Assembly (NCBI GenBank): GCA_001574975.1 | Contig: KQ965734.1 | Location: 608,249 to 672,248, forward strand | Direction: 5' to 3' | DNA: 64,000 nucleotides | Origin: Gonapodya prolifera JEL478 | Lineage: Eukaryota > Monoblepharomycota > Monoblepharidomycetes > Monoblepharidales > Gonapodyaceae | Shown: one piece after another, positions 16,501-50,786 of the stretch | How the letters are laid out: every line of letters begins with the position of its first letter | Position numbering within the stretch: position 1 is the stretch's first letter | Position numbers and translations under genes: made by a program | Notes under the pieces: model-generated | The model's input: only the letters and a program-made list of their open reading frames with translations | What the model was told of the DNA's origin: nothing | The model's database searches: none

Positions 16501-19500
16501 TTCAGTGCGTTGATCGTTCGACCGGAGATAAAGAAAGGAGTAAAAAAATGAAGCCCGTAAAGTTCATCGTCCACGTCGAATTATGAAAACCAACAATACC
16601 TGTCACTCTCTCTACAAGCTGCTTCTCTCGCTCCGACGGTGCAGCTACCCGCTTGTATGTCATGAGTGTATCCACCAACACGGACCGCTGCCGCGCTCTT
16701 TCCAGTTCCGGCTGCCAACGAAGAACTTGCGACAGTAAAAACTGGAGTCCTAAATGCACGGATGGCTCACCGATGAGGATTCACGTGGAACAAGATAGAC
16801 TATATAACTTACTCTCGTAGTCATAAGGAGATATAAAATTGAAGCAATTCTCCATCAAAACTGCCACCAGTGCATCCTTGTTGGTCACGTCGTCGACTGC
16901 TCCAGCAACCTCGTCCTTATAGCCACGCGAGGACAGAAAGACGCCCTTAACGTATTCTAGAAGAATATAGTCATCTGCGAGCCGAAAGGATGAACACGCA
17001 CGGAAAATCAATGCGAACGTGAGAGCATAATTTCTACCTTCCATGAAATAGGTCCTCCCAAACTCAAGTGCTGTTGCCAGATCATAGTTTGTTTTCGCAA
17101 GAAGTTGCGGCACCAATTTCCTTTGATACTCGGCATTCCGGGTTCGGCTTGTCCGGTACAAGTCGGCATCGAAAGGTATCTCTGTGTAAAGTGATATTTA
17201 AAACCAAGGGCGCGATTAAATATGCTCACGGAGACTGACCGAGGAGTCGGAGTTGATAGAGCCACCTCGAAGTTGTTCCTTGACTTTCCATGTCCGCCAC
17301 CAAGCCACGCTGCTTCCAAGCGATGCCTGCAGCTTGTCCAATCGAGGACAATCGCAAGAGACTATCAAAGTTGTTTCCAGTCGTTCGCACGCCATCCTAG
17401 AAACATCATTTGAACTTGCAAAATCGATCAAAGAAGAACACCACCCTCACCTCAAACCCTGCAAGAGCTATTGTTATGAAAATATGTTTGGATCTTTGCG
17501 CATGTCCTTAACTCAATAATTTGATCTTACCGGTTTCCATTGGTGATGACAGCGTGTACGCTAATGCAAGCTGCTTGTCAATCATTCGCGAACACAAGAC
17601 CTATCACGTGAACTCGGAGCTGTAGGAGAGACTGTTGAAGAATTACATTCGCCGAACTCACTCTTCGTAGAAGTTCTTGCAGCAATACGTTGTACTCATC
17701 GCATCTCGCATCTTGCTCCAATTTGCCGTCGAATCCCACCCATTGACAGAGTGAATCCAAAACACAATGCCAGACACGCATACCGAGGATTCGCGAATTG
17801 TTTCCCAAAAGAAAATGCATCAGCTTCAAACCGGAGTACGGGGAGCCCTGCGATGATGCCTCTTTGCCATTGATTTTGGATTTGTCTTCTCTGCTGTCAA
17901 ACGAATCCAGAACAAACTCAAGACAAATCTCCATAGCTGTGGAGGTGTTCAGAACAAAGTTGTTTTCTGCAAAACGATCGTTGAAAAGCGAGGGCATGGA
18001 GATTTTCTGCGACGACCCGGATACTACTGGAGGTGTTGGAATTTTGCGAGACAGCGATTCGGGCTCTCTGACGGGCTCCAGCGGTACGCTTGAACTTGAG
18101 CTTCCGACTTTATTGACGGACACATTAAATGCTGTCATGTGTTTGTCTGGTGTCAGTGCAGACAACGATAATGTTGTTCCACTAGAACTCACTGTGGTTA
18201 TCACCACTACCACGGCGCACGGCCGTTTGATAATCTCCAGCATCGGATTGGCAAAATACTTTGTGTAGTATTTCGAATCGCTTGAAATCATCGAGTAATT
18301 CTGCGGGAACGTAAAAATAGGGAACATATATAGTTTGAACGGGCATGCCCACCGTGAATAATTCCCAGTTTACATGACTGGACACCTCGTCGACCGAATT
18401 CCATGATACGGTGGGTTAAGCTGACGCCCTGTGTTGCAGAAAACAATGGCAAAGGAATGTAAAGACATCGTTAGATCTCAAAAGTACCCAACGTCTCTCT
18501 ACCTTCACTGCCTTCCAATTGCCCTTGTACGCATACCTCACCAACGACTGTGATATTGATCGCAGTATCTGAGTTTGTGCTTCAGTGTCCCCTACGACTT
18601 CTGCGGAGTCGCACATAGCCATCGCCATGGTAATGTGCCCATTCTGTATCGCATATTCAGCGAGCTTTCTATGAAAAACTGCCCGCGAAACTTCAAGAAG
18701 TTCTGCTAGTCTGGAGTTATAGTTGAATCATCAGTTGCGAAAAACAAAATTACAACAGGTGGGAGTTTCGAACCTCAAGAATTGCGTTTCCGAAAACATA
18801 TCAGTTTGTGTTGATAGCGACGCAGTCAACGTTCCTTTGCCTTTCCTTTGCTCCGAGGAATCTGGATCTGCAGAGAACAGTTTGCTTGCATACGCGGCTA
18901 AAGTAGTCATCCTTATACGCTCTGTCGCAAAATTATCTGGTGTGACAAGTATCTGAAACTCGAGAGCCAATCCTTTGAGGGATCGCAACATCGTAGAGCA
19001 AAGTTTGTGATGCAGCTCAGCCACAAGATTGTCTTGCCTCAGGCCTAATCTGTCAAGGTGCTCGAGCAGCTTGACAGCAGCTAGGGCTATGTTTTGATAG
19101 CGCTTTGCTTGGGCAACATCTTGGAGCCCAACAGCACGAATTAATATCTTCTCATTCAAAAGGCGATTGAAGTCTGCACCTTGAGAAGCACCAATCTCCT
19201 GCAATTCACCAACTATCCAAGTGACCGTTTCTTCTGCTAGCCACGAAGAATCTTCCTTGGTGAATTTGGCCACCTCGGGCAGCAAACTTGGCACAACTGT
19301 TCCATCAGGTGACACACTCGACGATTCTACTCCAGTAGCTACCAATTGCACCATCTTATCAATGTAACCCGCGTCGGAAAGGTTGCAAGCGCGAATACCG
19401 TATGCCTCCAGACGGTCCAAATGATTGTACGCAGCCACAACTTGAAGGCCATCCCACATTGCATCATGAACGTCAACGAATGAAAGAATGTGGTGCAAAA

Positions 19501-22500
19501 TGCCTGAAAATCCGTGTTAAAAATGAGTGTCTCAAGTGGAAAAAGCACCATCTCACGTTTCGCAAGCGACAAATTCGAAGCATCAAACGTCTTGACACCA
19601 TACTTTTGCAGCATTTTTTTTAGATACAACAATCGATATTGCTCCAACAGATCACCAGCGCGTTTAAGTCCGGGAATGAGGGACACCTAGTAAACAACGA
19701 AAAAAACGAGTCGAAAAGAGCCACCAACACCAGTTAAGTGTTGCTTACATTTTGAATCATTTCGTCCAGACTCGGGTTCCATGGAACAGGAGATTTTCGC
19801 ATGAATTCGATGAGCAAATCGACTTTCGTATCCAAGTTGACGATCAATTTCATGGCGGCCAAAACTCTTCCTTCCCAAGGCGCTATATGACGAAAAACGT
19901 TCCAACCACCACCCCACCTTCTGACAGATTGACTGCACATACCACCGGATAAAACACCTCGATGCGGTGTATCCTCCATTAGCCCAAGGCAAAAATCTTG
20001 AACAAGCTCATCGCTATCCAGACTCTTTCTGTCTGCGAAAGGTTTCACATGCATTTTGAAAGCCACAGAAAGAAGTTCCGCTGAGGGTTCTCTTTCCAAG
20101 AGCTCAATGGCTGCGATGGAGTAGCGTTTACACAACCATCATACAATTATAAGCGTGATAACACACACCGATAGTTGAAGGGTCCAACGTGCAGTATTCA
20201 GTGAGTGTTTTGCGATAATCGTGCTCGTCCTTTTGAGAGCGCCCAGATGACCATAATGCGTGAAAGAATAGGCGATTATTGTGTAGAACTCACCCAAAGA
20301 TAAACCATTTCTTCCAATTGTGCCTTTAGCACATATGTCTCTGCACTGCTCAATCCACAGGTTACTTTTCAGAAGGTAGTCCAAAAACGGTTTACTATTT
20401 ACCTGTTCAGCATTAGTATTTCATCCTCAGGAGGTGTCATTCCTCCCCATAACGCTGTTTTTGCGATTCGAATGGTCTCATTGATGAACTCCGAAGGTGT
20501 TGCTGGACCGTGCATAGTACTATGCCTTGAGTTGTCGTTCTCAACCAGTAAAATGGTCTGAAGAGCCATATGGGGACTTTCTTCCAGTGCCTCAACAACA
20601 CGCGCTCGATGTGCGAGCCAAATGGTGACACCGGTTCTGTGATCCCACGGAAACTGATTGGTTGTAGAATCGGAAAGGCAGTCCAGGACTGGGACTGCAC
20701 CTTTCATCGGCGTCTTTAATGTATGGAAGGACTTCGTCCTTCAACCACGGGTTCAAAACATCAGAGGACACCGTGTCCGGGATGGAGTTTAGAAGTTCGC
20801 AGATCCCGAAAAAAAGGTCACATTCTGTGTTTGGCAACATGAGCAACACATAAATAGAAAATGAGTGCAAAGCACCAGCTTCTTACCATGGTAATGTCGC
20901 CGCCAGATAATCAAACCTTGTTTAAGTGCACCACTTGCAAAATACTCTTCCATGATCGTGCGCACATCGTTCTCCCTGAAAAGTTTCCAAGTACTTGCAC
21001 TCAAGGGCACTGCGTCTTCACGGATAAGAGATACCGTCCCGAGCAAGTGGATGACGGCTCCGAGTTGCAGCATCTCTTTCTCTCCTACGATCGCGCCATT
21101 GGGCTCCATCTGAGCAGCGTTGACCACATCTCGCGCGTACGTCAGGATCTCAAATATCGCTTGCTCCGTTGGCAACGTTACATTCAGCGCAAACTCGACG
21201 GAGAAACGTGCATCCCCAAGTGCTTGTAAATCAGAAATAAGCGATTTAGCATCAAAGTCAGCCACGCTCTCGCCCGAGGGATCGTCGAGCTCTTCAAGGA
21301 TATCTTCAAGTTTTGATCGTATAACGACTTTCTCATCAAGACCAAACTTCAGAGCAACATCACGAGCTTCTTCAAAGCGGCCATCTTGAATGAGCGATGA
21401 CAATCTCATCGACGGACTGGCTTGGAAGAGACTGCGAAGATAAATTGTGGGAGTCCCTGCCCCATTTTCGACTTCGACAAACGGGATATGTTCCGAGGAG
21501 GATCGGTGATCGGTTTCAGCCAACCAAGCGCCCTGTGAAACGGTGAGATCCGCCTCAAGTTTGTTGCCAGTTATGTGAAATACGAGAAGACGACGTGTAT
21601 TATCAGTCACTGAACGTCGTTTCGTAAGAGCGACAATCCTGTCGTCGGAAGTGAGTCTGAAGTCGACAATTGGATCGTCGAAAGGTAAAAACCGATAAAT
21701 CTCAAGCCTGCAGAAATTTCATCAAAAAATAAGATCCAAAATGTCTGTAACAAATAGCAATGACAGACGAGATGTATGCCTACGTTGTTGGTTCAACAAT
21801 TGCGATAGTTCCATGCTCCGAAAGAACAAACCATCGACCCCATCCATCAGTCGATTGTTGTATGTTCGTTATCTTACAACCAAGAACTTCTTGCTCCAAA
21901 CCTTTGATTGTCAGCGGTGTCCTCGATAACAGGGAGTTCGTCATCGCAAATTGTCCAGCGCCAGCAAGGACAACACGTGATTCCTCGTGAGAAAAAGATA
22001 TAAGCGCAGTGGAGATTGACGAATGGGAGGAGTTGGGGATAATTTCGAGCGAAATAGAGCGCTTTAGCTGTTGGAGTCGGCACATCAGTCTCTCAGAAAG
22101 AGAATAATAAATGATGTCCTCAAGCATACCTCCATCGCTTTCTCCAAATCTCCGTCATCCAAAGCCTTTTCTAAGGCCGAAAAATCTATGTTCGCGAAAC
22201 GGCGGATGACACAGTCAGACGTCACAACAATCAACTCCTCCACGGTGCTTCTGCCGAGAGAAGAATTGGGTTGGTCAAACATATGGAAAGAGTGTAAATG
22301 GGGCATCGAGTCTTTCGTATCATCCGAGTTAGCGCCAACAGATTGTTCCAGCAACGGTTCAAGCGGGATAAATCACGCCCAGAAAGCCTTGTTCCGTTGT
22401 CCGACTGGTTGATCCCCTTATGTCACTCGCAATTCATCTCCGAACCCACCTCCATGAATCCGCAAATCCAAGCCAATCGAAGACTCTGCCACCATGCCCA

Positions 22501-27867: not shown

Positions 27868-30800
27868 TTATGCAAACAAAACTATGGTGGACTCAGAGTA
27901 GCCAACATCCTCCAGCAGCTCTTTTACGTCGTCAACAAACTTTTTCGACCCACAAACCATTATTCTCATCCCCTCGAAAACTGACTCGGGTGCTTTCGAA
28001 CTCGAAGTCGGTGCACCCCCAAGAGTGCTTGGCGAGCGTCCCGAAATTTGGATTGCAAAGGAATTCGCCCGAGAAAGAGCATTGCCTGAACTGCCGTGCT
28101 TGCGGAGAGCACCACCGGATAGTGACTGGAGCTCTAGTGATGGCATAGTGGCCGCTATAATATCTTGTGAAAGGCGCCCTCGAGGACCCGTCCACTGCAA
28201 GAGTAGTCCGAGCGTTATAGCGCTTTATTAACAAAAAACGAAAGGCCGTTGTTCCACTGACCTCGGGGGATGCAGAAATCGGCAGCGTCGTCACTTTGAG
28301 TGCCCCGCTCATCTCATTTACTAAAACATCTAGATGTGACTGTCCAAAGATGTCGTGGTCTGATTCAACGACCGATAGTAGGTTTATTGAGAAAATAGGA
28401 ACACCAAGCTCTCCAGGTTTCGTTGGAGGTGATCGCAGACCGCATTTGTTGTACCTATTGACGTTCCAGTTGACAAAAAGCTCCAGTAGGCGTCATACCC
28501 TCACTTACCAATCCAGAATCTTGAGCATTGGTACAAGCCCTGATCCTTGGCATATCAAGCCCAGGTGCTTGAAGCACAGCGTTGGATGTTTCAGGTTTTG
28601 GATTTTCCTCAATCGCGACTGTTGGTGAGCTTCCTGCATGTTTGTTGCAAGACAATGGAGGAGCTACTCACTCGACGGGATTCATTGCCATATCTTTCTT
28701 TGCAGTCTTGACGCGGATGTACGAGCCCACTTGGACGTTCGCCAGCAACTTGCCCATTTGCCCGTCGGGCAAAAGCTTTATGATGAGGTCAAGTGAATCT
28801 GTAACGACTGTCTTGAGTGGTGTGTATGCTCTGGTGACAAGCGATCCGTTCTCCGGGTTGACCATCTGCAGCATGACATGTTCACCAGGTTTGAATACAA
28901 CAGGTTGAATCGAAGGATTGATGTTGTTTCCTTTGAGGTCGAACGCAAACAGCATGACCTTTTTCCTTGCGCGTGACTCTGAAATCACGGTCTTCTTTAC
29001 GAGCCGCAGATACTTGAACGAGTATGAGTTTAGAACGCCGTGGGAAGAACCCTCCTCTTCCTCCGTCTGTTCTGCATTGGTGACCACTTCCAGATTATTA
29101 AGCGCTTGGGGTGCCCCTGGTGCTCCATCAGACGTTGCCGTGGACTTGATCACCTGTGGCCTGAGTTCGAATTGCGTCGATCGCATGTGCTTGCCGTCAG
29201 ATTCGGTTTTGATTCGCGCGACGCGCATACTTTTCAGTTGGAACGCGGCCACACGCGAATGGGTGTGCGACACTTGCTTGACCTTGCCGTTTGTAGTGAC
29301 GGGGATCGACGCGTTTCCTTCAAACAAATCTGTGACATCCTGTGATGGAAGGGTTTCGTGTCACGAACTTGTAGCAGCCATTTTGGATAACATTGTGCCC
29401 ACGTACCATCCCGATCACCTGCTTTAGTGGTGCGGAACCTCCGGGGTGACTGTCCATGTACGATCCAACATCATCTAGCAGAAGGAGGTGTTTCTGAATG
29501 TCGTCATTAGATGAGCAATACCTCGTGCAACTCACAAACAACATCTTGCAAAACCTGTAGCGTTCAGTGATATCTAAATCAATGGCAATCGATCAAAAGC
29601 ATTCCAGAACAAGTCTCGCTTACAATTAATTTCGCTCCCCGTGATGCCCTCTCGTTGACTTTTCGAGTGTAGAAAATCAGATCAAGGCAAACGCAACGAC
29701 TCAAATGGACGACCCTCACATTCGTCCCAAGTCAAGGGCATGAGATTAGTGGTGCTCGACATGCCCTCCTCATCCATCGATTTTTGGAGCATCTGCTTCC
29801 CTTTCCGGCTAAAATCTCTCCCTGTTATCATGCTCAGCAATCGCTCCCATTCATGGTAAAGCACAAGGAATGTTATCCAGGATGCAACAGTCACGATGAA
29901 GCCAACTTGAATGCTATACAGCTGGTCGGTACCTCCAAAGTATATTGTGGCTCCACTGTTGTCCAAATTGGGAGAGGGTAAACACGACGTTCCACAGTGC
30001 GATTAGTACTCCTTCTCCTCGAAGCACTCACATGTAACAATTGACCATCATAATGCCCACCAGACCGTATCCAATATATCGGTGAAGACGTCGAATGGGA
30101 ACCAAAACACTTCTCAGGACACGTCCAATCGGTCCCATCTTTGACAGCCAAAGTGGGGCTGTGGGAACGGTTGAATGTTACATGCCGGTCCCAACGACTC
30201 TGTATTGAATACTGGCTCACCGCTGGGAGAGGCGAGGAATCCCAGCACGGTCACGAGTACCAAGCTCGCTAAAATGGTGATTCCGATAATTGTGTGGGTA
30301 GAGAGTCCGTTGCCGCTCTGTCTGATCATCAAAGTGATGGAAATGTCCAAGATCCCTTCGGTGACGATGACGCTCCTGTTTTTAATACATTAGCCTTGTT
30401 ACTTTCAGACGATATGAGCATGTGAAGATACCCACATTATTTCACGGTGCCATAGAAGATAATCCTCGTACCGAGTGTTGTACCGAGCGATCGCAATAGA
30501 GACGGGAGCAACGAAACAAAAACAAATCACTAAAATGACGCCGTGGAATGTGTGTAGTGAAGTTAGGATTGTATAAAGCCTCGTGATAGATGGGTCTTGA
30601 CCGTCTGCGGCTGCAGGCGTGTCTGTCGTCAAGTTGGAGAATGTCACAAAGCCATAACCGCGTGAAGTAGCTCCGCTGCAAAACAAACGCATCGGTTCGG
30701 ACTCGGTCGGAATGGTGAGATAAATGCAAAAGCAGTCCGCTCACTGGTACTTCAAGGTTGAAGAGCTTGACCACGCAACGTTGTAGCGAAAACGTACTCC

Positions 30801-32741
30801 AGGTGTCAGAACAGTGTCGTCCTTATCCCCTGTGTCAATTTTGCGTGACCAACCCACTGCCTTTGTGTATCCAGGGAACTCGAGGGTAACGTCTGTGATA
30901 TTCTCAGCGTTCTGTAGGCTATCATCCAAGGGTGGAGCATATCCAACGCTTTTGAACGATAGGTAGTACGATAGACGAGAATTATCGTGTAAAAATAAAG
31001 TCGTTTAGTGGCTCACCTGTGAAGATCGTGGACTGTGTCATCTGAAGGGAGGTACAGATATATATCCTAGAGGCACGAAATGTTAACCTTCGGTGGCTTC
31101 ACGCAGTGTAGAGACATGCCAACCTGGTCGGCCATGCTCGGACCAAAACCCAAGGCAAAGTATCCCGAGCACTTGCACGCCATCTTGAAGTCATAGTACC
31201 CATCGGCACTTCTCAGTCTCCACCTCCATTGAATGTACGCGTTTGGTTGGACCACGCTCCACGTTGTGGCGTTTCCAAATGACTCGGTGGGGTCTGTGAT
31301 AACTGGTAGCGGGGTGAGATCCGTGGATTGATATCCGAGTTGTGTGAGCTTGATCCACGCTTTCGCAAATGAGGAAGACCATTGGGCAGGGTTGGCTGCG
31401 TATCTGTGCAAATGCTTATCCATTTTTAATCGATCCGACGATTCTGGGTAACTCACTGGTAGACCCAATAGCGATACGTGTTGCTGAAAACGAGAGACAT
31501 GTCGGTGGGTAGCATTATTGTGCTCCCATCGGTGTACTGAAGTTGCCCCGCGCTGGTTGATCCATTGTTGAACCTTCTAATGGTTTTCTTCAGGTTAGTG
31601 ATGGTTGAAGAGAGGCGAAGAACGTGCGAAAAGCAACGAACCTCAGATCGGTCAAAGTGGTGTAGTAACTGTTGGTCCAATCAGTCGGAATAGCGGACCA
31701 AGCTCCGACATAACCACTCCTGTCCAAATGCGCTGGAAGAGGTACAAATGAGATAAACCGATCCCACGTGAATTCATTCGAAAAGAAAACCATACCCCTC
31801 CCCAGAGTATGAGCGCCCATGAGCGCAACCGCCTCCGCATCAGTGAAACCCATACGGGTAGTGAAAACATATCGGACATGGTCCTCTCCCAACGAGGGGT
31901 TTGGCATTCTGTCGGCGGGTGTAACTCCCGCACCATTCGCGAAATCGGTGCGACCACAAGAAAAACCGACTGAAATGTTGTTGGTTGCAATGTGGCACAA
32001 ATGAGGCCGTGATGTTTGGATGATATGGAACGCGCTTGCTTACTCAGTGGCCCTCCTGTTGCGGTTATCGCTACAGATGCGGCAAATGCCCACATATCTG
32101 CGGCTGATTCGAAATTGTAGTCACGTAGAAGCTCTCCAATTGCAATCAACTTACTGCTGACTTTCGGGTAGCTCGATTTAAACTCCCGCAGGAGTTGGCG
32201 AGGAACATCCAGACCCAAATTCGCAGCTGTTATGCAATAAGGAACCAGTTCCTCATCGTAAGCTTGAAATAAAACCTCGAGAAGTCTCCTCACAATAGTT
32301 CGCCATCGGTGGAAACTGAATTGTGGCATGCATGCCACCGGATCCGTCTGGTTGGATGATTGTTAACAATTTCTGCTGAACGAAAGTTGAAAGCACTCAG
32401 ACGAACCGAGCAGCGAGTACGTCCCCGCATCATGCCACGCAAGTCTGATTAGGAGTGGTGCTGCCGTACCGGGGTGTCACATCAAATGCGGTTCACTCCA
32501 GAGAACGGGGACTCACCCGCCCCTCCCTGCACAAGTCCGTAGACCCTCCTCCTTATGTCCACCCAGCCTACGTATTGGGGATTGAAAATGAATTCACCCC
32601 CGCGGAATGTTACGATGGGATCCAACCTGCCACGTTTGCTCCACAGTATGTGACGTTAGACGACGAGGACAGCGCAGCAGCGCCGATCCCAAGTGCGAGC
32701 AGTGCAATGCATGCTGTCAGTGCTGCCAGGAGAGCGCGCAT
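27868..32741 (-). CDS. Secreted class I haem peroxidase - DOMON - cytochrome b561 - cytochrome b5 - b5 reductase fusion
   Basis: One gene of about 17 short introns, roughly 1,250 residues. The signal peptide MRALLAALTACIALLALGIG starts at 32741. Peroxidase: distal PLLIRLAWHDAGTY (about 32400-32440), ANLGLDVPRQLL, MWAFAASVAI, proximal VALMGAHTLGR (about 31810), SGYVGAWSAIPTDWTNSYY and TIMLPTDMSLVF. DOMON (about 31300-30770): GYFALGFGPSMADQ then DIYLYLPSDDTVHDLH, ending TLKYHGATSRG. Cytochrome b561 (about 30640-29820): five helices with His in LHTFHGV, LLWHREIMW, LSTHTIIG and RRLHRYIGYG. Cytochrome b5 (about 29720-29250): LTWDEFNERASRGAKLIVLQ, DSHPGG and HTHSRVA. Reductase: FKPGEHVMLQ, TRAYTPLKT, CQGSGLVPMLKILDW and IMVCGSKKF, stop at 27868. 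With a signal peptide and five helices, the peroxidase/DOMON part faces outside (or lumen) and the flavin part the cytosol. The inferred flow is NAD(P)H to FAD to b5 to b561 to DOMON to peroxidase. Each exon join checked keeps frame. Confidence 0.9.
32104..32154 (-). other. 51-nt stop-free intron in the peroxidase domain
   Basis: The donor GTAAGTTGATTG and acceptor TTTCGAATCAG flank 51 nt that contain no stop in frame. Removal gives KVSTADMWAFAASVAI, the normal class I peroxidase sequence. Retention would insert 17 residues just before that helix. The family match supports removal as the main product. Confidence 0.75.
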
Positions 32742-32952: not shown

Positions 32953-34205
32953 CTACTCCATCCATTCCGAGCTTTGCTGTCGGAGCAGCTCCAAGAGCCA
33001 GCGATCGTCCAGCGACACTGTTCGCTCTGGGTACGCACCCTGTTGTCCCCTCGCTGCGAGCGCTGCCGCCGCTTTCCGAGAGTAGGACGCAGCGGGGAAA
33101 AATCCAAGTTCATTTGTTTCGAGCACACGCCCCATCACCCAGCCGTCCGGATATCGGTAGTAAAGCTGCACTCGCTGCTCAGGCAATACAGAAACCTCGT
33201 CGTCGGCAGACGGCGAGAATTCGGCGATACCCACACCTCTTCCAACAAGCTTTGGTGGTCCAACGCTGTCAATACTTTTGCGATCCATGCTTTTACGAGT
33301 GCTTGAGCGACGGCCAAGACTCCCAAAGCTGGCTTTCTTGCCAATGGTGGCGGCTGCGGCAGCTATTTCTCCGGTAATTGACGAGAATCCCACACGGAGG
33401 AGACTGCGCTGACGGGTAAGTGTGCCTTCCAGGGAACTCGACGCTTGGGGCGGAGGAGAGGGCGAAGAATTTGATTTGAAGGAGGAAGCTCGAGAAGGAG
33501 CTGTGTGCGCTGGTCGGAGGATTGTGGGTGATTCCGCTCGTGGAGTTCTGCGACCCAGCTCCAACGCTCCAGCTCGCCGAGGTGGGATCACTTCGGTGGG
33601 ATATTTCTCCGAGCGTCGGCGCATCCGATAGAGAAACGTGAGCAGAAGAAACCCGAGCCCGACGCTGACAGTGCTGACAATAATGGCGATGATTCCAGCC
33701 GTTCCGATGGTCACCTGTGATTGCAAAGCGCTGGAGGTGAAAGGTAAACGTTTCATTCACGGCTGCGTTCCATATCACTTCTCAACAACTTTGTTACCTG
33801 GATCCGGGACTCGCTTGTGCGCCCATCACCCCTGCAACAGTGGACGTACTTGACGGGTCCATCGAAAATGCTGTAACCAGGTCTGCCCCGCGAAGCGACG
33901 AAGAAGAGGCGGAAGGGGTCACATCAGAAGCGAGAGGGCTGGAAGACGCCACAGTCTCGTCAACTTTTGGAATCGGTGTCCCCAAGGGGGTGGCATTTGC
34001 CGTAGGGACTGGTGAGGTGGTGTCGCTGCTCAGTCGTTCGGTAGATGACGAAGAGGTCATTGAAGGTTTGGGAGGCAAAGCACTGGGGCCCTTTTGCTTT
34101 GGGGTACATGAGGTGCCCTGCTGTTTCGAACACCATCATCGACAAACTCACCGATGGTGGCGCTCCCGCCGCTGTGAGCGGCTGCTCATATGGTAGGTAT
34201 GTCAT
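32953..34205 (-). CDS. Single-pass membrane protein with cytosolic C-terminal SH3 domain
   Basis: Reads, N to C, as a Ser/Thr/Pro-rich, probably O-glycosylated ectodomain (PSMTSSSSTERLSS onward, about 34080-33800), one membrane helix (IIAIIVSTVSVGLGFLLLTF, about 33690-33635), a basic stop-transfer (RMRRR), a long Ser/Pro-rich basic linker, and a C-terminal SH3 domain. Within the SH3, FSPSADDEVSVLPEQRVQLY, DGWVMGRV and GFFPAASY are typical of RT-loop acidic residues, the conserved Trp and the final G-x-F-P. The stop is at 32953. The N-terminus is unsettled: an ATG at 34205 (MTYLPYEQPL) can be spliced in through a very short intron, but no signal peptide is evident there, so a further 5' exon is likely. 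The architecture resembles fungal cell-surface SH3 membrane proteins of polarity or osmosensing pathways; the role is inferred. Confidence 0.72.
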
Positions 34206-45583: not shown

Positions 45584-47466
45584 ATGCAAACCCCGCCCAT
45601 CACGGACTCGGACTCGGACCGCCCACCCCCGCTGCCGTACCCGGCCGTCCGGATCCTGGAGGGCTGTCTTGCGCGGGGGGCTGAAGCAGGGGCGAACGAG
45701 AAGGTGTTGTTGTCGAATGAGGTGGGCGNNNNNNNNNNNNNNNNNNNNNNNNNNNNNNNNNNNNNNNNNNNNNNNNNNNNNNNNNNNNNNNNNNNNNNNN
45801 NNNNNNNNNNNNNNNNNNNNNNNNNNNNNNNNNNNNNNNNNNNNNNNNNNNNNNNNNNNNGACATCAGTACGGCAAACACGCCTCCGTCCTGGACCTGCG
45901 CGCCGCCCTCCTGTCGCGCGGGTACGCCGACGTCGAATCCCGCGAGATCACGCTCGCGGATTGCGGGGACGTGCTTGCGGGCGTGCGCGGCGAGGCGCGT
46001 GATGCGGGAGCGGGGGGGAGGGGGAGGGAGAGGCTTGTGGTGGTGAATTTGTGCGATGGGACCGAGGATGACGGGTGCGTGAGCCTGTTGTCTCTCCCCT
46101 GCAGTTGCAGGGTTTTGACAAGTGCCTGCACGTGCCGCCTGCCACATGCCACCTACCGTCTCGCGTGCGTGCGGCTCGGGCTCAAAAGGTACCCCGGCCT
46201 CTCCGTAGTGACGGAGCTGCACCGACTGAACCTCGCCTACACGGGCGCCGACCCGGACTTCTACCTCGCGACGACGTCCAAACCCGTTTTGAAGCGCATG
46301 CTGCAGGCGCGCGGGGTGCCGACGTCGCCGTTCGTGGAGGTCGCGCCCGGGGTGACGGATGCGGAACTCGAGCAGTTAATGTGAGTTTTGGTGACGTGAT
46401 GTTGTGTGGTTGGGTCCGATGGGGAGGATGGGAAGGGGTGAGAAGGGGTGGCGATGAGCTTGAACGTCGCCGCGAACCGAAATGGGACCGAGGAAGTGAG
46501 CGCGGATAAGGTCTGAACACCATCGCTCACGAACCACCGCCTCTCGGCCTGCCTACCCAACCACCGCATATCTTCCCGATGACGACCATTGTCTGAACAA
46601 CCGTCACCACACGTCTCTCACCACAGCCTTTCTCTCAGCCACCAGATCGGATTCCCCCTCATCGTGAAACCGTCCGTCTCGTACGCCTCGCTCTGCATCA
46701 GCGACCGCTCCGTCGTGCACACCGCCGCCGAATGCGCCGATCAGTGCCGCCGTGTGCACTCTGAGACGGGCCAGGGCGTGTTCGTGGAACGCTTCCTCGC
46801 CGGCCGCGAGTTCACCGCGCTGTGCACGGGCGACGCGCACCAGGGCGTCAAGGTCTACACCGTTGCCGAGCGCGCGTTCGACCCGGCACTCTCGACGTAC
46901 CGCCGCATCCTGGCGTTCGACCGGTACTGGGACGGGTTCGACCTCAACGGCGGCGCGCCCGATCCCGAGGCCTCCTCGGCGGCGCCCATGTACGTGTATC
47001 GCCCCGCACCGGAGGCTTGGCAGACGCACCTCGCGGACGTTGCGAGGAGGGCTTACTTGGCGTGCGGTGGGAGTGGGTACGGGCGCGTGGATATGCGGAC
47101 ACCGCAGGACGACACGTGGGAGGGCGTTCAGGTGCTGGAAGTGAACGCCAATTGTGGGATGAGTTTCGATGTCGTGACGAGTACTTGCGGCGCGGTGGGT
47201 TGGCGCTTTTGGTCTCTTTCGCCATTGGCGACGTTTGCTGAACATGAACATCCTGCCTTGAAAATTATGTGGGCACGCGCTTCGACACTGCCATTTTTCG
47301 CCGTGCCCTTTGTTTGCACTTTCTCCCCGCCCGATCAACAATGTTTCAGATCCTTAATTTGGCGAATGTGAAACCACCCGACTTCGCGCACTCTCTCGTC
47401 CTCTACGCCCTTCGCAGGCAGCAGTATGCCTCGCCGAAACACATCTCTGGAGATGCGGAAGTATGA
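45584..47466 (+). CDS. ATP-grasp ligase of the D-Ala-D-Ala ligase-like class
   Basis: ATP-dependent carboxylate-amine/thiol ligase fold. Visible pieces are HASVLDLRAALLSRGYADVE, LVVVNLCDGTEDDG spliced to YPGLSVVTELHRLNLAYTGA, then LKRMLQARGVPTSPFVEVAP, IGFPLIVKPSVSYASLCISD (ATP-binding Lys), GQGVFVERFLAGREFTALCT, and the metal-binding end QVLEVNANCGMSFD. The last exon gives RRQQYASPKHISGDAEV. The ATG at 45584 (MQTPPITDSDSD) is preferred; a longer frame opens at 45452. An assembly gap of 132 N (45729-45860) removes part of the N-terminal domain. The intron at 46075-46188 is a multiple of three and stop-free. Substrate is unknown; peptidoglycan-type D-Ala ligation should not be assumed in a fungus. 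Confidence 0.78.
45729..45860. other. Assembly gap (132 N)
   Basis: Run of N inside the first coding part of the ATP-grasp gene. The true gap length may differ from 132. Confidence 0.99.
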
Positions 47467-48925: not shown

Positions 48926-50041
48926 TTATGGAGTTGAAACAACGCACACACCAAACTTTACCACCACGTGCCACATTAATTTAAGCTCCTGAAGCACTTC
49001 CTGCTCGGAGCCCCGATCAGCCCATTTGGCCGGGTCCCGCCGCAAATCACGTACCGCGTCTCCAATCGCCCTCGCGTCTACAACACCGTCGCGTGCGATC
49101 CGCGCAGCGATGGAGGGCATAGTTGGGCCGCGAAAATCGGGAGGTACGGAATCCACAGCGAGGGAATACCCCGAGTGGTACAAAAGACGAAGGGAGTATG
49201 TGGACGCAAGCCGCTCCAGCACGTCTCCGCACGGCGTGGACTGGAACGACGGGTCAGCGACGAGTGCGTAGGCGTCCCGAAGGAGGTCAATGTCGCCGTG
49301 GATTTGTGCCTCGATATAGTGGTCGAGGTTTCGCATGGGTTGGGGGGCACCTGCCGGGTCCCGGTCCTGCGACGTAAACTCGAGCGATGTGATGCGCTCA
49401 AAGAGTTTCGGCGGTCTCATCGAGTGCTCCCCGAGTGCGAAATCGCGCGTGAAACTTTCTTGAAACAGTTTGGCCAGAATGGCTACAAAGCTGTCGCTGG
49501 TGCCAACAGCTTCAAGGTTGTTGGCGTGGCTATCCAGCCACGTGAAAGTGCACCGGCGCGACACGCGAGGCTTCAAGAGAATGTAACACGATCCGAACCG
49601 GGGTGCGGGACCGTCCGGATGGCCCATGAGATGTAGCGCGCCATACTTTGGTCTGTGGTGGGGTGACGAGGGCAATTCGGGGTCATGAAAAGCCCCTCCA
49701 AAAAGGCGTCTTTCCCACTCGTCTCGGGCGCCGCCGGGCCACGCAGAAACGCCGCCGTTGGAGACTCCCGTGACCCACTGGCTGGTGTACCTGCCCTTGG
49801 CGAGAAGCGATTCGGCAACTGTTGCGCCATCAGAGAGAGGTCTGTCCGGGTGGAAGTGCAGAGCAACGCGCGCGTGTTTGCGGATCGACCTGGCGAGTGT
49901 TTCGGCTTCGTCCGATGCAATGTTGGACATGCGAAAAATCTCGTCCAGCATCGTCACCGCGTGTGCGGTTTTTGAGCGAGAGAGCTGTTCGACATGGCGG
50001 ATTGCGCGAATCTGCGTTGGGTGCAGGGGTGGATCGTCCAT
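48926..50041 (-). CDS. DUF3626 family protein
   Basis: Single-exon frame of 371 residues. It matches the DUF3626 pattern, known mostly from bacteria and also found in some fungi: HARVALHFHPDRPLSDGATV, then ESLLAKGRYTSQWVTGVSNG, SAWPGGARDEWERRLFGGAF, RPKYGALHLMGH and the strongly conserved GPAPRFGSCYILL followed by CTFTWLDSHANN. The family's biochemical function is not established. There is no signal peptide, membrane segment or intron. The frame is intact. It lies in tandem with the SRPBCC gene (195 bp apart) and divergent from the SDR gene. Confidence 0.82.
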   Translation of the reverse strand: MDDPPLHPTQIRAIRHVEQLSRSKTAHAVTMLDEIFRMSNIASDEAETLARSIRKHARVALHFHPDRPLSDGATVAESLLAKGRYTSQWVTGVSNGGVSAWPGGARDEWERRLFGGAFHDPELPSSPHHRPKYGALHLMGHPDGPAPRFGSCYILLKPRVSRRCTFTWLDSHANNLEAVGTSDSFVAILAKLFQESFTRDFALGEHSMRPPKLFERITSLEFTSQDRDPAGAPQPMRNLDHYIEAQIHGDIDLLRDAYALVADPSFQSTPCGDVLERLASTYSLRLLYHSGYSLAVDSVPPDFRGPTMPSIAARIARDGVVDARAIGDAVRDLRRDPAKWADRGSEQEVLQELKLMWHVVVKFGVCVVSTP

Positions 50042-50786
50042 ATCAAAGGCTTGGGGTGCACTCCAGCTCCTTGCATCATTGCAAACCCGTGGTTCACAAG
50101 GAGCGAAGCTAAAAGTTTGAGATCACGAAAATTGCTCGGGTGTAATGGTTTTTCTCGCCATTGAGTATCCAAACTCCCCCGCCCCTCCCGTTCAAACCTA
50201 GATGTATTTCGCTTATTTGAGACGGTTGACGGTCGCAATAGATGGACTTTGTCAGTTCGAGGTTCCGTGAGTCATCGCTGTTGCGGTCCCTACCACTCCA
50301 CCACCCTGCGTTTTCACCCGTCGCCACTCGCCACAATTTCCAAGCGTCCTGGACGCTTTTTCTTTCGGTGCAGACTGTTAGACTGTTGTATGAAGACGCC
50401 TTGCGTCAATATTCCGATCTACCATGCTACCCCTGCGCCCTGCTCCAAGTTTCGGCAGCAAACTCATGCCCATAAGGCCTGAATTACTGTATATTAACTC
50501 AACACGGGCGAGCTCGGGCTTTGCCCGGAAATTTTCCAGCTACATAAAAAGGACTGACTTTCTGCCAAACACCGTCTCCCTTCACATTTCGGACTCATCC
50601 ACGTATCACTTCGGATGAAATCAAAGGCGGAAACATAATTCTGCCCAGGCCGAACGGGTGTGGAGAGCTTTGTTTGTTTATCCTGACCTACCTAATTTGG
50701 CCGGACGTTTAGCCATTTCAGCCGGGGGTCCGTAAAGAAGCGATTCAACTGCCAAGTCTCCTGCTACTGACACCCCGCTCTCCCCA
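50042..50786. promoter_or_regulatory. Divergent intergenic region (DUF3626 / SDR)
   Basis: About 745 bp between divergent starts. The small frames here have no domain content. I see no repeat, RNA gene or clear promoter motif. Confidence 0.4.

Follow-up and report, generated by a model that had tools for sequence, protein, structure and literature searches.

A putative single-chain, NAD(P)H-powered transmembrane peroxidase encoded in Gonapodya prolifera

Secreted or lumenal haem peroxidases rely on whatever reductant surrounds them. A gene of Gonapodya prolifera JEL478 raises the question of whether such an enzyme may instead carry its own supply of electrons across a membrane. The gene lies on the minus strand of a 64,000-nucleotide (nt) stretch of contig KQ965734.1 (assembly GCA_001574975.1), referred to here as the window, and all positions follow the numbering of that stretch. 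Its predicted product joins, in this order, a hydrophobic signal-like start, a class I haem peroxidase, a DOMON domain, a b561-like membrane part, a cytochrome b5, and FAD- and NAD(P)H-binding domains of the cytochrome b5 reductase type. The best explanation, which we regard as probably correct, is that one polypeptide forms a transmembrane peroxidase powered by NAD(P)H. If the enzyme is wired to NAD(P)H in this way, removal of H2O2 on the far side of the membrane would become a metered, energy-driven process. Papers are cited below by their PMC identifiers, each for an excerpt of its text.

The first step is the gene itself. A sequence-only reading of this region had claimed a single minus-strand gene at 27868-32741 whose frame continues across the splice junctions that it followed. 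Independent splicing arrived at the same limits, set by the start codon (an ATG at 32741) and by the stop codon, which ends at 27868, and at one frame kept between them with no internal stop codon. All 22 introns are of the GT-AG type, with lengths of 49-76 nt in the initial model, in which 19 of the 22 acceptors also read YAG. This initial splice model encodes 1169 amino acids (aa), while the refined model, with a shorter exon 4, encodes 1163. The first boundary of exon 4 (32276, 18 nt too long) was replaced by 32294, which is followed by a GTGAGG donor, because the longer form carries a six-residue insertion relative to its PDB relatives and a donor other than GTRAG. With this change, intron 4 gains 18 nt, and the best PDB match of the peroxidase rises from 173 to 182.5 bits (1.5e-52). 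Residue numbers refer to the refined model; those of the initial model are 6 higher beyond residue 91.

The domains appear to belong to one protein. The join between peroxidase and DOMON can be read directly from the DNA, because the end of the one and the beginning of the other lie within exon 10, which contains 4 residues of the Pfam peroxidase match. Of the four inter-domain linkers between the peroxidase and the FAD domain, three are free of introns, and only the linker from DOMON to the first helix has one, intron 12. Joining cytochrome b5 proper also requires intron 16, since exon 16 holds just 4 residues of the b5 match. The alternative, in which at least two adjacent genes or a chimeric assembly have been read as one, draws on this dependence of the DOMON-membrane join on intron 12 and of the b5 join on intron 16, on the splice donors, which fit GTRAG in 14 introns and depart from it in 8, and on the fact that no relative among the viral, prokaryotic, phage and plasmid collections confirms the domain order. 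Moreover, stop-free exons 10, 13, 16 and 20 arose in 111, 173, 21 and 3 of 2000 first-order shuffles, respectively, so that a lack of stops in exons 10 and 13 counts, by itself, as modest evidence and proves little there, whereas it is rare by chance in exons 16 and 20. Against an artefact stand the exons common to two domains (exon 10 for peroxidase and DOMON, exon 20 for b5 and FAD), as well as introns 12 and 16, which both have GTGAG donors and either of which, if retained, would introduce an in-frame stop. Furthermore, gaps between exons reach 76 nt at most, and a separate promoter or separate genes would have no evident place there. The gene contains no N, and its GC content at third codon positions is even over its five parts (0.53-0.59). 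An artefact of the gene model or of the assembly is thus considered very improbable, and transcription into a single mRNA is predicted.

The first domain is the peroxidase. PF00141 matches it with an E value of 2.2e-35 (123 bits against a cut-off of 27, whole protein, initial model), and 205 distinct PDB sequences match it at E 0.001. The top PDB entries bear the name ascorbate peroxidase (APX), and the identity to two of them is 43% over the aligned segments of the initial model; we take these entries to be trypanosome and Leishmania enzymes. Alignment with PDB class I enzymes finds the catalytic positions filled, namely the distal R61, W64 and H65, the proximal H189, W205 and D249, with roles that are in part presumed. 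R198 aligns with the Arg of plant APX at the ascorbate-binding position and with the Arg of some cytochrome c peroxidase (CcP) entries; the two top PDB entries have Asn and Phe at this position, and the trypanosome-type enzyme has Asn. Those CcP entries appear to be engineered, to judge from the N184R variant named in PMC9358470. Assignment to the hybrid B peroxidases was considered and rejected: the proximal motif reads ALMGAHT, and a WSC match is absent from the Pfam scans. A scan against NCBIfam gave only catalase-peroxidase and flavin-reductase matches, each below its cut-off.

The start of the protein had been read as a signal peptide. What stands of this claim is a hydrophobic, signal-like segment; an upstream in-frame ATG, which would lengthen the N-terminus by 24 aa ahead of the hydrophobic start, leaves both a cleaved signal and an anchor in play. 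With that ATG, the segment could be an anchor rather than a cleaved signal, and the sides of the membrane would be unchanged. The hydropathy scan also marks a stretch inside the peroxidase, which is taken for a buried helix.

Behind the peroxidase, the DOMON domain is matched by PF03351 when this piece is scanned alone (2.9e-9; 37.6 bits, cut-off 32.7), and it is unmatched in the Pfam scan of the whole protein. It is followed by five membrane helices predicted from Kyte-Doolittle hydropathy, and H486, H518, H549 and H599 sit just ahead of helices 1 to 4. Consecutive spacings along M354, H442, H486, H518, H549 and H599 are 88, 44, 32, 31 and 50 residues. The counterpart values in HYP1, calculated from the residue numbers in PMC10784544 (M90/H174 for DOMON) and thus a comparison with one protein in spacing only, are 84, 37, 34, 33 and 36. 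According to the rule given in PMC10691727, the first and third His would be the ligands of the outer haem, and the second and fourth those of the inner haem. It is this spacing of His residues, and that alone, for which the b561 label is preferred over that of a ferric reductase. The membrane part is accordingly described as b561-like, which is the weakest of the domain labels. The order of domains in the sequence-only reading holds by Pfam for the peroxidase, DOMON, b5, FAD and NAD parts, while its b561 domain is weak and depends on ligand spacing. On one membrane piece, a sub-threshold match to DUF4079 (E 0.11) outscores that of b561.

The tail of the protein resembles a cytochrome b5 joined to its reductase. 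PF00173 matches the b5 part with E 6.5e-12 (whole protein, initial model), and FAD_binding_6 matches with E 2.1e-10 on the whole protein and with 43.7 bits on the reductase piece (cut-off 21.1). NAD_binding_1 remains under its cut-off of 22 bits on the whole protein (0.0012, 19.9 bits) and exceeds it on the reductase piece alone (4.4e-5, 24.5 bits). The best PDB match of the tail is an NADH-cytochrome b5 reductase (E 1.2e-8). Additionally, a long acidic linker separates cytochrome b5 from the FAD domain.

The sides of the membrane on which these parts lie can be predicted from charge. Loops predicted to be cytosolic contain 3, 6 and 6 Lys and Arg residues, compared with 1, 1 and 0 in the others; for Asp and Glu, the counts are 3, 0 and 6 compared with 2, 0 and 1. 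Since acidic residues offset the rest, the positive-inside pattern is clear in the loop that joins helices 3 and 4. Five helices, together with inner loops rich in Lys and Arg, place cytochrome b5 and the reductase in the cytosol and the peroxidase and DOMON outside or in a lumen. In CYBDOM proteins, which combine DOMON with cytochrome b561, an even number of helices leaves both ends outside (PMC10691727). Five of the seven N-glycosylation sequons fall within the outer part. The predicted topology fits what a working electron chain needs. The positions of the features are collected in Table 1.

Table 1. Positions of the fusion gene, its exons and domains, and the upstream gene in the window
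Feature	Positions	Strand	Details
Whole gene	27868..32741	-	1163 aa (refined model) from 23 exons, with exon 4 at 32294-32347; all 22 introns GT-AG
Exon 1	32627..32741	-	Hydrophobic signal-like segment, aa 4-22 (hydropathy)
Class I haem peroxidase	31298..32565	-	PF00141, PDB matches, alignment
Exon 10	31124..31403	-	One open exon shared by the PDB-aligned peroxidase (final 34 residues) and the DOMON match (initial 36)
DOMON	30609..31282	-	PF03351; candidate haem ligands M354, H442
Intron 12	30676..30744	-	69 nt, GTGAGC...TTGCAG, in-frame stop if retained
b561-like membrane part	29853..30557	-	Five hydrophobic helices; H486, H518, H549, H599 candidate ligands of two haems
Exon 16	29720..29955	-	One open exon; encodes membrane helix 5, the linker and the initial 4 residues of the b5 match
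Cytochrome b5	29208..29732	-	Exons 16-20, PF00173; H722 in HPGG, with H760 or H762 as second ligand
Exon 20	28672..29339	-	668 nt open; last 9 residues of the b5 match, linker, all 92 residues of the FAD match
b5-reductase-type FAD and NAD(P)H domains	27871..29024	-	PF00970, PF00175; RAYTP R905, QGSGLVP 978, MVCGS 1134
Upstream same-strand gene	32953-33756	-	One hydrophobic stretch; weak SH3 match, 19.2 bits against 22.9

In the proposed mechanism, cytosolic NAD(P)H would reduce the FAD, from which electrons would pass singly to the haem of cytochrome b5. They would then move to the inner membrane haem (H518/H599), a b5-to-b561 transfer that we infer, further to the outer membrane haem (H486/H549), and from there to a haem held in DOMON by M354 and H442. 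On the far side, which may be the cell surface or the lumen of the endoplasmic reticulum (ER), these electrons would sustain the turnover of the class I peroxidase during H2O2 reduction. The last step could take place in two ways: by direct transfer to the peroxidase haem, like that from cytochrome c to CcP, or through a small donor that is recycled, for example the radical of ascorbate or erythroascorbate. The b561-DOMON portion of this chain is supported by transmembrane currents measured for HYP1, in which the irons of the outer membrane haem and the DOMON haem are modelled about 20-24 A apart (PMC10784544). An outward feed of cytosolic reducing power to the peroxidase had been suggested earlier for this locus, and the domains, the residues and the charge pattern of the five helices support it, although the function itself is deduced from sequence. 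Taken together, a peroxidase with a built-in electron supply through the membrane, using up to five b haems and one FAD if all sites are loaded, would consume H2O2 outside at the direct expense of cytosolic NAD(P)H and possibly close an ascorbate cycle within one chain; it would be an enzyme of a new kind and would follow a plan like that of dual oxidase, built from other families and running in the H2O2-consuming direction. For this complete picture, the chances appear to be about even.

Several observations weigh against this explanation. In the gene model, the weakest splice site is that of intron 20, within the reductase, which requires a GAG acceptor; such acceptors are rare, and the stretch between the FAD and NAD motifs may for this reason be slightly wrong. 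The reductase is also divergent, with a different FAD-to-NAD stretch and a Gly in place of the Ser of b5 reductase 1. The second His of cytochrome b5 follows an insertion and falls outside the Pfam match; compared by eye with the spacing that we assume for b5, the insertion is of about 15 residues. The helices come from a simple hydropathy scan, and the last ligand interval is 50 residues compared with 36 in HYP1, which corresponds to a longer loop here. The b561 profile PF03188 gave sub-threshold matches in three of five membrane pieces, the best with E 0.6 and 10.8 bits (cut-off 23), and it is unmatched in the whole protein and in a longer membrane piece. A 72-residue piece, distinct from the one matched by DUF4079, gave a better E value with the ferric-reductase profile PF01794 (0.029, 14.9 bits against a cut-off of 28). 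A NOX or ferric-reductase membrane domain was nevertheless rejected, as this match too is under its cut-off, though its E value is better than that of b561 on any piece. The DOMON-b561 piece has no sequence match in the PDB up to E 10. In the peroxidase, no counterpart of APX Lys30 was found by spacing (Gly53 stands there), nor is the acidic pair of the CcP docking site for cytochrome c evident by spacing (VY stands there), both positions having been placed with numbering that we presume to be correct.

The nature of the donor bears on a special case of the favoured explanation, a self-recharging ascorbate peroxidase, in which ascorbate or erythroascorbate would be oxidised outside and its radical re-reduced by the b561-DOMON arm with electrons from NAD(P)H. 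R198 speaks for this version, as Arg172 of APX is needed for ascorbate binding (PMC9358470). The same source reports that adding the Arg to CcP gave ascorbate activity, while adding it to the APx-CcP of T. cruzi gave no gain, and that the T. cruzi enzyme oxidises ascorbate weakly without this residue. Thus, Arg at the ascorbate position alone decides little, and without a Lys30 equivalent the product is not assigned as an APX. The ascorbate-type site appears to be half present; likewise, the Trp of the cytochrome c route of CcP is present without an evident acidic docking pair. As each site is only partly present, the donor may be of the ascorbate type or electrons may pass directly, and the self-recharging version is regarded as possible, if rather doubtful.

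Other explanations change the purpose of the chain. As an analogue of dual oxidase, the protein would reduce O2 outside to superoxide or H2O2, and the peroxidase would then couple radicals of wall material. To our knowledge, b561 haems are six-coordinate and are not known as oxygen reductases, which counts against this role, as does the His spacing, which follows b561. The sub-threshold ferric-reductase match of one membrane piece can be read in its favour by its E value and against it by its score. The plan is indeed alike, with a peroxidase-like domain, a membrane haem domain, and FAD and NADPH domains (PMC3591440). An oxygen-reducing enzyme of this kind is considered quite unlikely. The protein might also be a surface ferric reductase of the CYBDOM type with its own NADH input, the peroxidase clearing H2O2 nearby and thereby keeping Fe(II) from Fenton chemistry. 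CYBDOM proteins do reduce ferric iron (PMC10784544, PMC10691727), but a fused peroxidase would be an odd safeguard where a separate one would serve, and no iron gene was recognized among the 20 neighbouring open reading frames (ORFs) scanned, which is weak evidence in a eukaryote. This reading, too, is unlikely, and the NAD(P)H-powered peroxidase is retained as the preferred explanation.

Relatives were sought in collections of viral, prokaryotic, phage and plasmid sequences. In viral contigs, the whole protein, two pieces of it and the peroxidase alignment gave 3, 1, 2 and 10 pattern matches, respectively, none of them a relative, and the whole protein gave 6 pattern matches and no relative in prokaryote genome contigs. 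Such contig scans with a single protein use exact peptide patterns and detect close relatives only. With the peroxidase alignment, prokaryote genome contigs yielded 559 pattern matches, of which 447 are peroxidase relatives, and the best 80 of these have 25-34% identity over the best segment. In none of these best 80 of the 447 loci, many of which are cut by contig ends, does a comparison at E 1e-3 find the DOMON-b561 part or the b5-reductase part. Among the matches listed, four phage records match the peroxidase part only. None of the 704 plasmid records found covers 80% of the query, and the 10 of them that were listed cover 20-23%, again in the peroxidase part. Fungi and protists are not in these collections as such, so absence from them says little about the real spread of the fusion, and eukaryote databases may well contain annotated proteins with this domain order that have escaped description. 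No description of the fusion was found in a literature search that covered titles and abstract openings of full-text records, the larger result sets in part, mostly from non-subscription papers and without preprints.

After removal of those mostly overlapped by longer ones, the window contains 57 ORFs of at least 130 aa, from which the scanned ones were taken. Those neighbours of the fusion gene that could be recognized are of ordinary eukaryotic kinds (KNTC1 repeats, BCS1, Kri1, F-box), and no H2O2-producing gene was recognized among the ORFs scanned. About 210 bases separate the start of the fusion gene from the stop codon of the same-strand gene upstream of it; the product of that gene looks like a membrane-anchored SH3 protein, and a Ser/Thr-rich frame is found further upstream. 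On the minus strand at 18734-21718, ORFs match the ARM repeats of KNTC1 (Rod), a component of the kinetochore checkpoint, with 4.9e-21 for 20792-21718 and with 0.00057, under the cut-off, for 18734-19516. An unbroken frame of 398 codons at 48929-50122 (minus strand) carries DUF3626 at residues 85-390 (1.6e-123). It matches 39 plasmid records, 24 of them from Streptomyces, with 32-37% identity in the 8 of 39 that were listed, and may possibly have been acquired from bacteria. In this eukaryotic window, a further frame, at 46583-47368 on the plus strand, matches the ATP-grasp domain of the D-Ala-D-Ala ligase C-terminal type (5.2e-12). The only gap of the window, a run of 132 N at 45729-45860 that marks it as part of a scaffold, lies outside the fusion gene. 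A tRNA search found none.

Among known systems, the CYBDOM proteins, such as Arabidopsis HYP1 and Drosophila CG8399, share with the fusion a DOMON domain before the membrane part, four similarly spaced His residues, a candidate Met/His haem in DOMON and a proposed outward flow of electrons. The fusion differs from them in having a peroxidase in front and cytochrome b5 with a reductase behind, with NAD(P)H rather than cytosolic ascorbate as the input, and five helices instead of an even number. Although it would work like a CYBDOM conduit, it is not classed as a CYBDOM member, because the helix number is not even and the b561 profile stays below its cut-off. The peroxidase part finds its best sequence matches in class I hybrid type A enzymes (APx-CcP) and plant APX, with which it shares the distal and proximal residues and the proximal Trp; unlike them, the fusion has a signal-like start and a membrane electron chain and no equivalent of Lys30. 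The trypanosome-type hybrid A enzymes have Asn at the ascorbate position, in contrast to the Arg found here. Fungal hybrid B peroxidases have been reported from chytrids to ascomycetes, with a proximal motif L/M-V-A-C-G-H-T/V and a fusion to the sugar-binding WSC domain (PMC8945051). They likewise represent a secreted haem peroxidase of the same superfamily joined to another domain, but the partner there is WSC and the motif contains ACGHT, whereas MGAHT is found here.

In plan, dual oxidase comes closest, as it also carries a peroxidase-like domain, membrane haems, and FAD and NAD(P)H domains on one chain. The sequence-only reading mentioned neither this parallel nor the Arg at the ascorbate position nor the departure from the helix number of ordinary DOMON-b561 proteins. 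In the fusion, the peroxidase is of class I, the membrane part is b561-like, and DOMON and cytochrome b5 are additional; the profile of the NOX-type ferric-reductase domain stays below its cut-off, and an EF-hand match is absent from the whole-protein Pfam scan, which also missed DOMON. Fusions of cytochrome b5 with its reductase are represented by b5 reductase 4 and nitrate reductase, in which FAD and NAD(P)H domains likewise come after b5, whereas here the pair is predicted to form the cytosolic tail of an electron conduit in the membrane. If the proposed mechanism is true, the plan of dual oxidase would have arisen again from different parts, and electron transfer through several haems across a membrane could be measured directly within a single polypeptide. 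Overall, the fusion seems to be a b-haem conduit spanning the membrane to which a new terminal enzyme and a new input module have been joined; the parts are familiar, and the combination seemingly is not.

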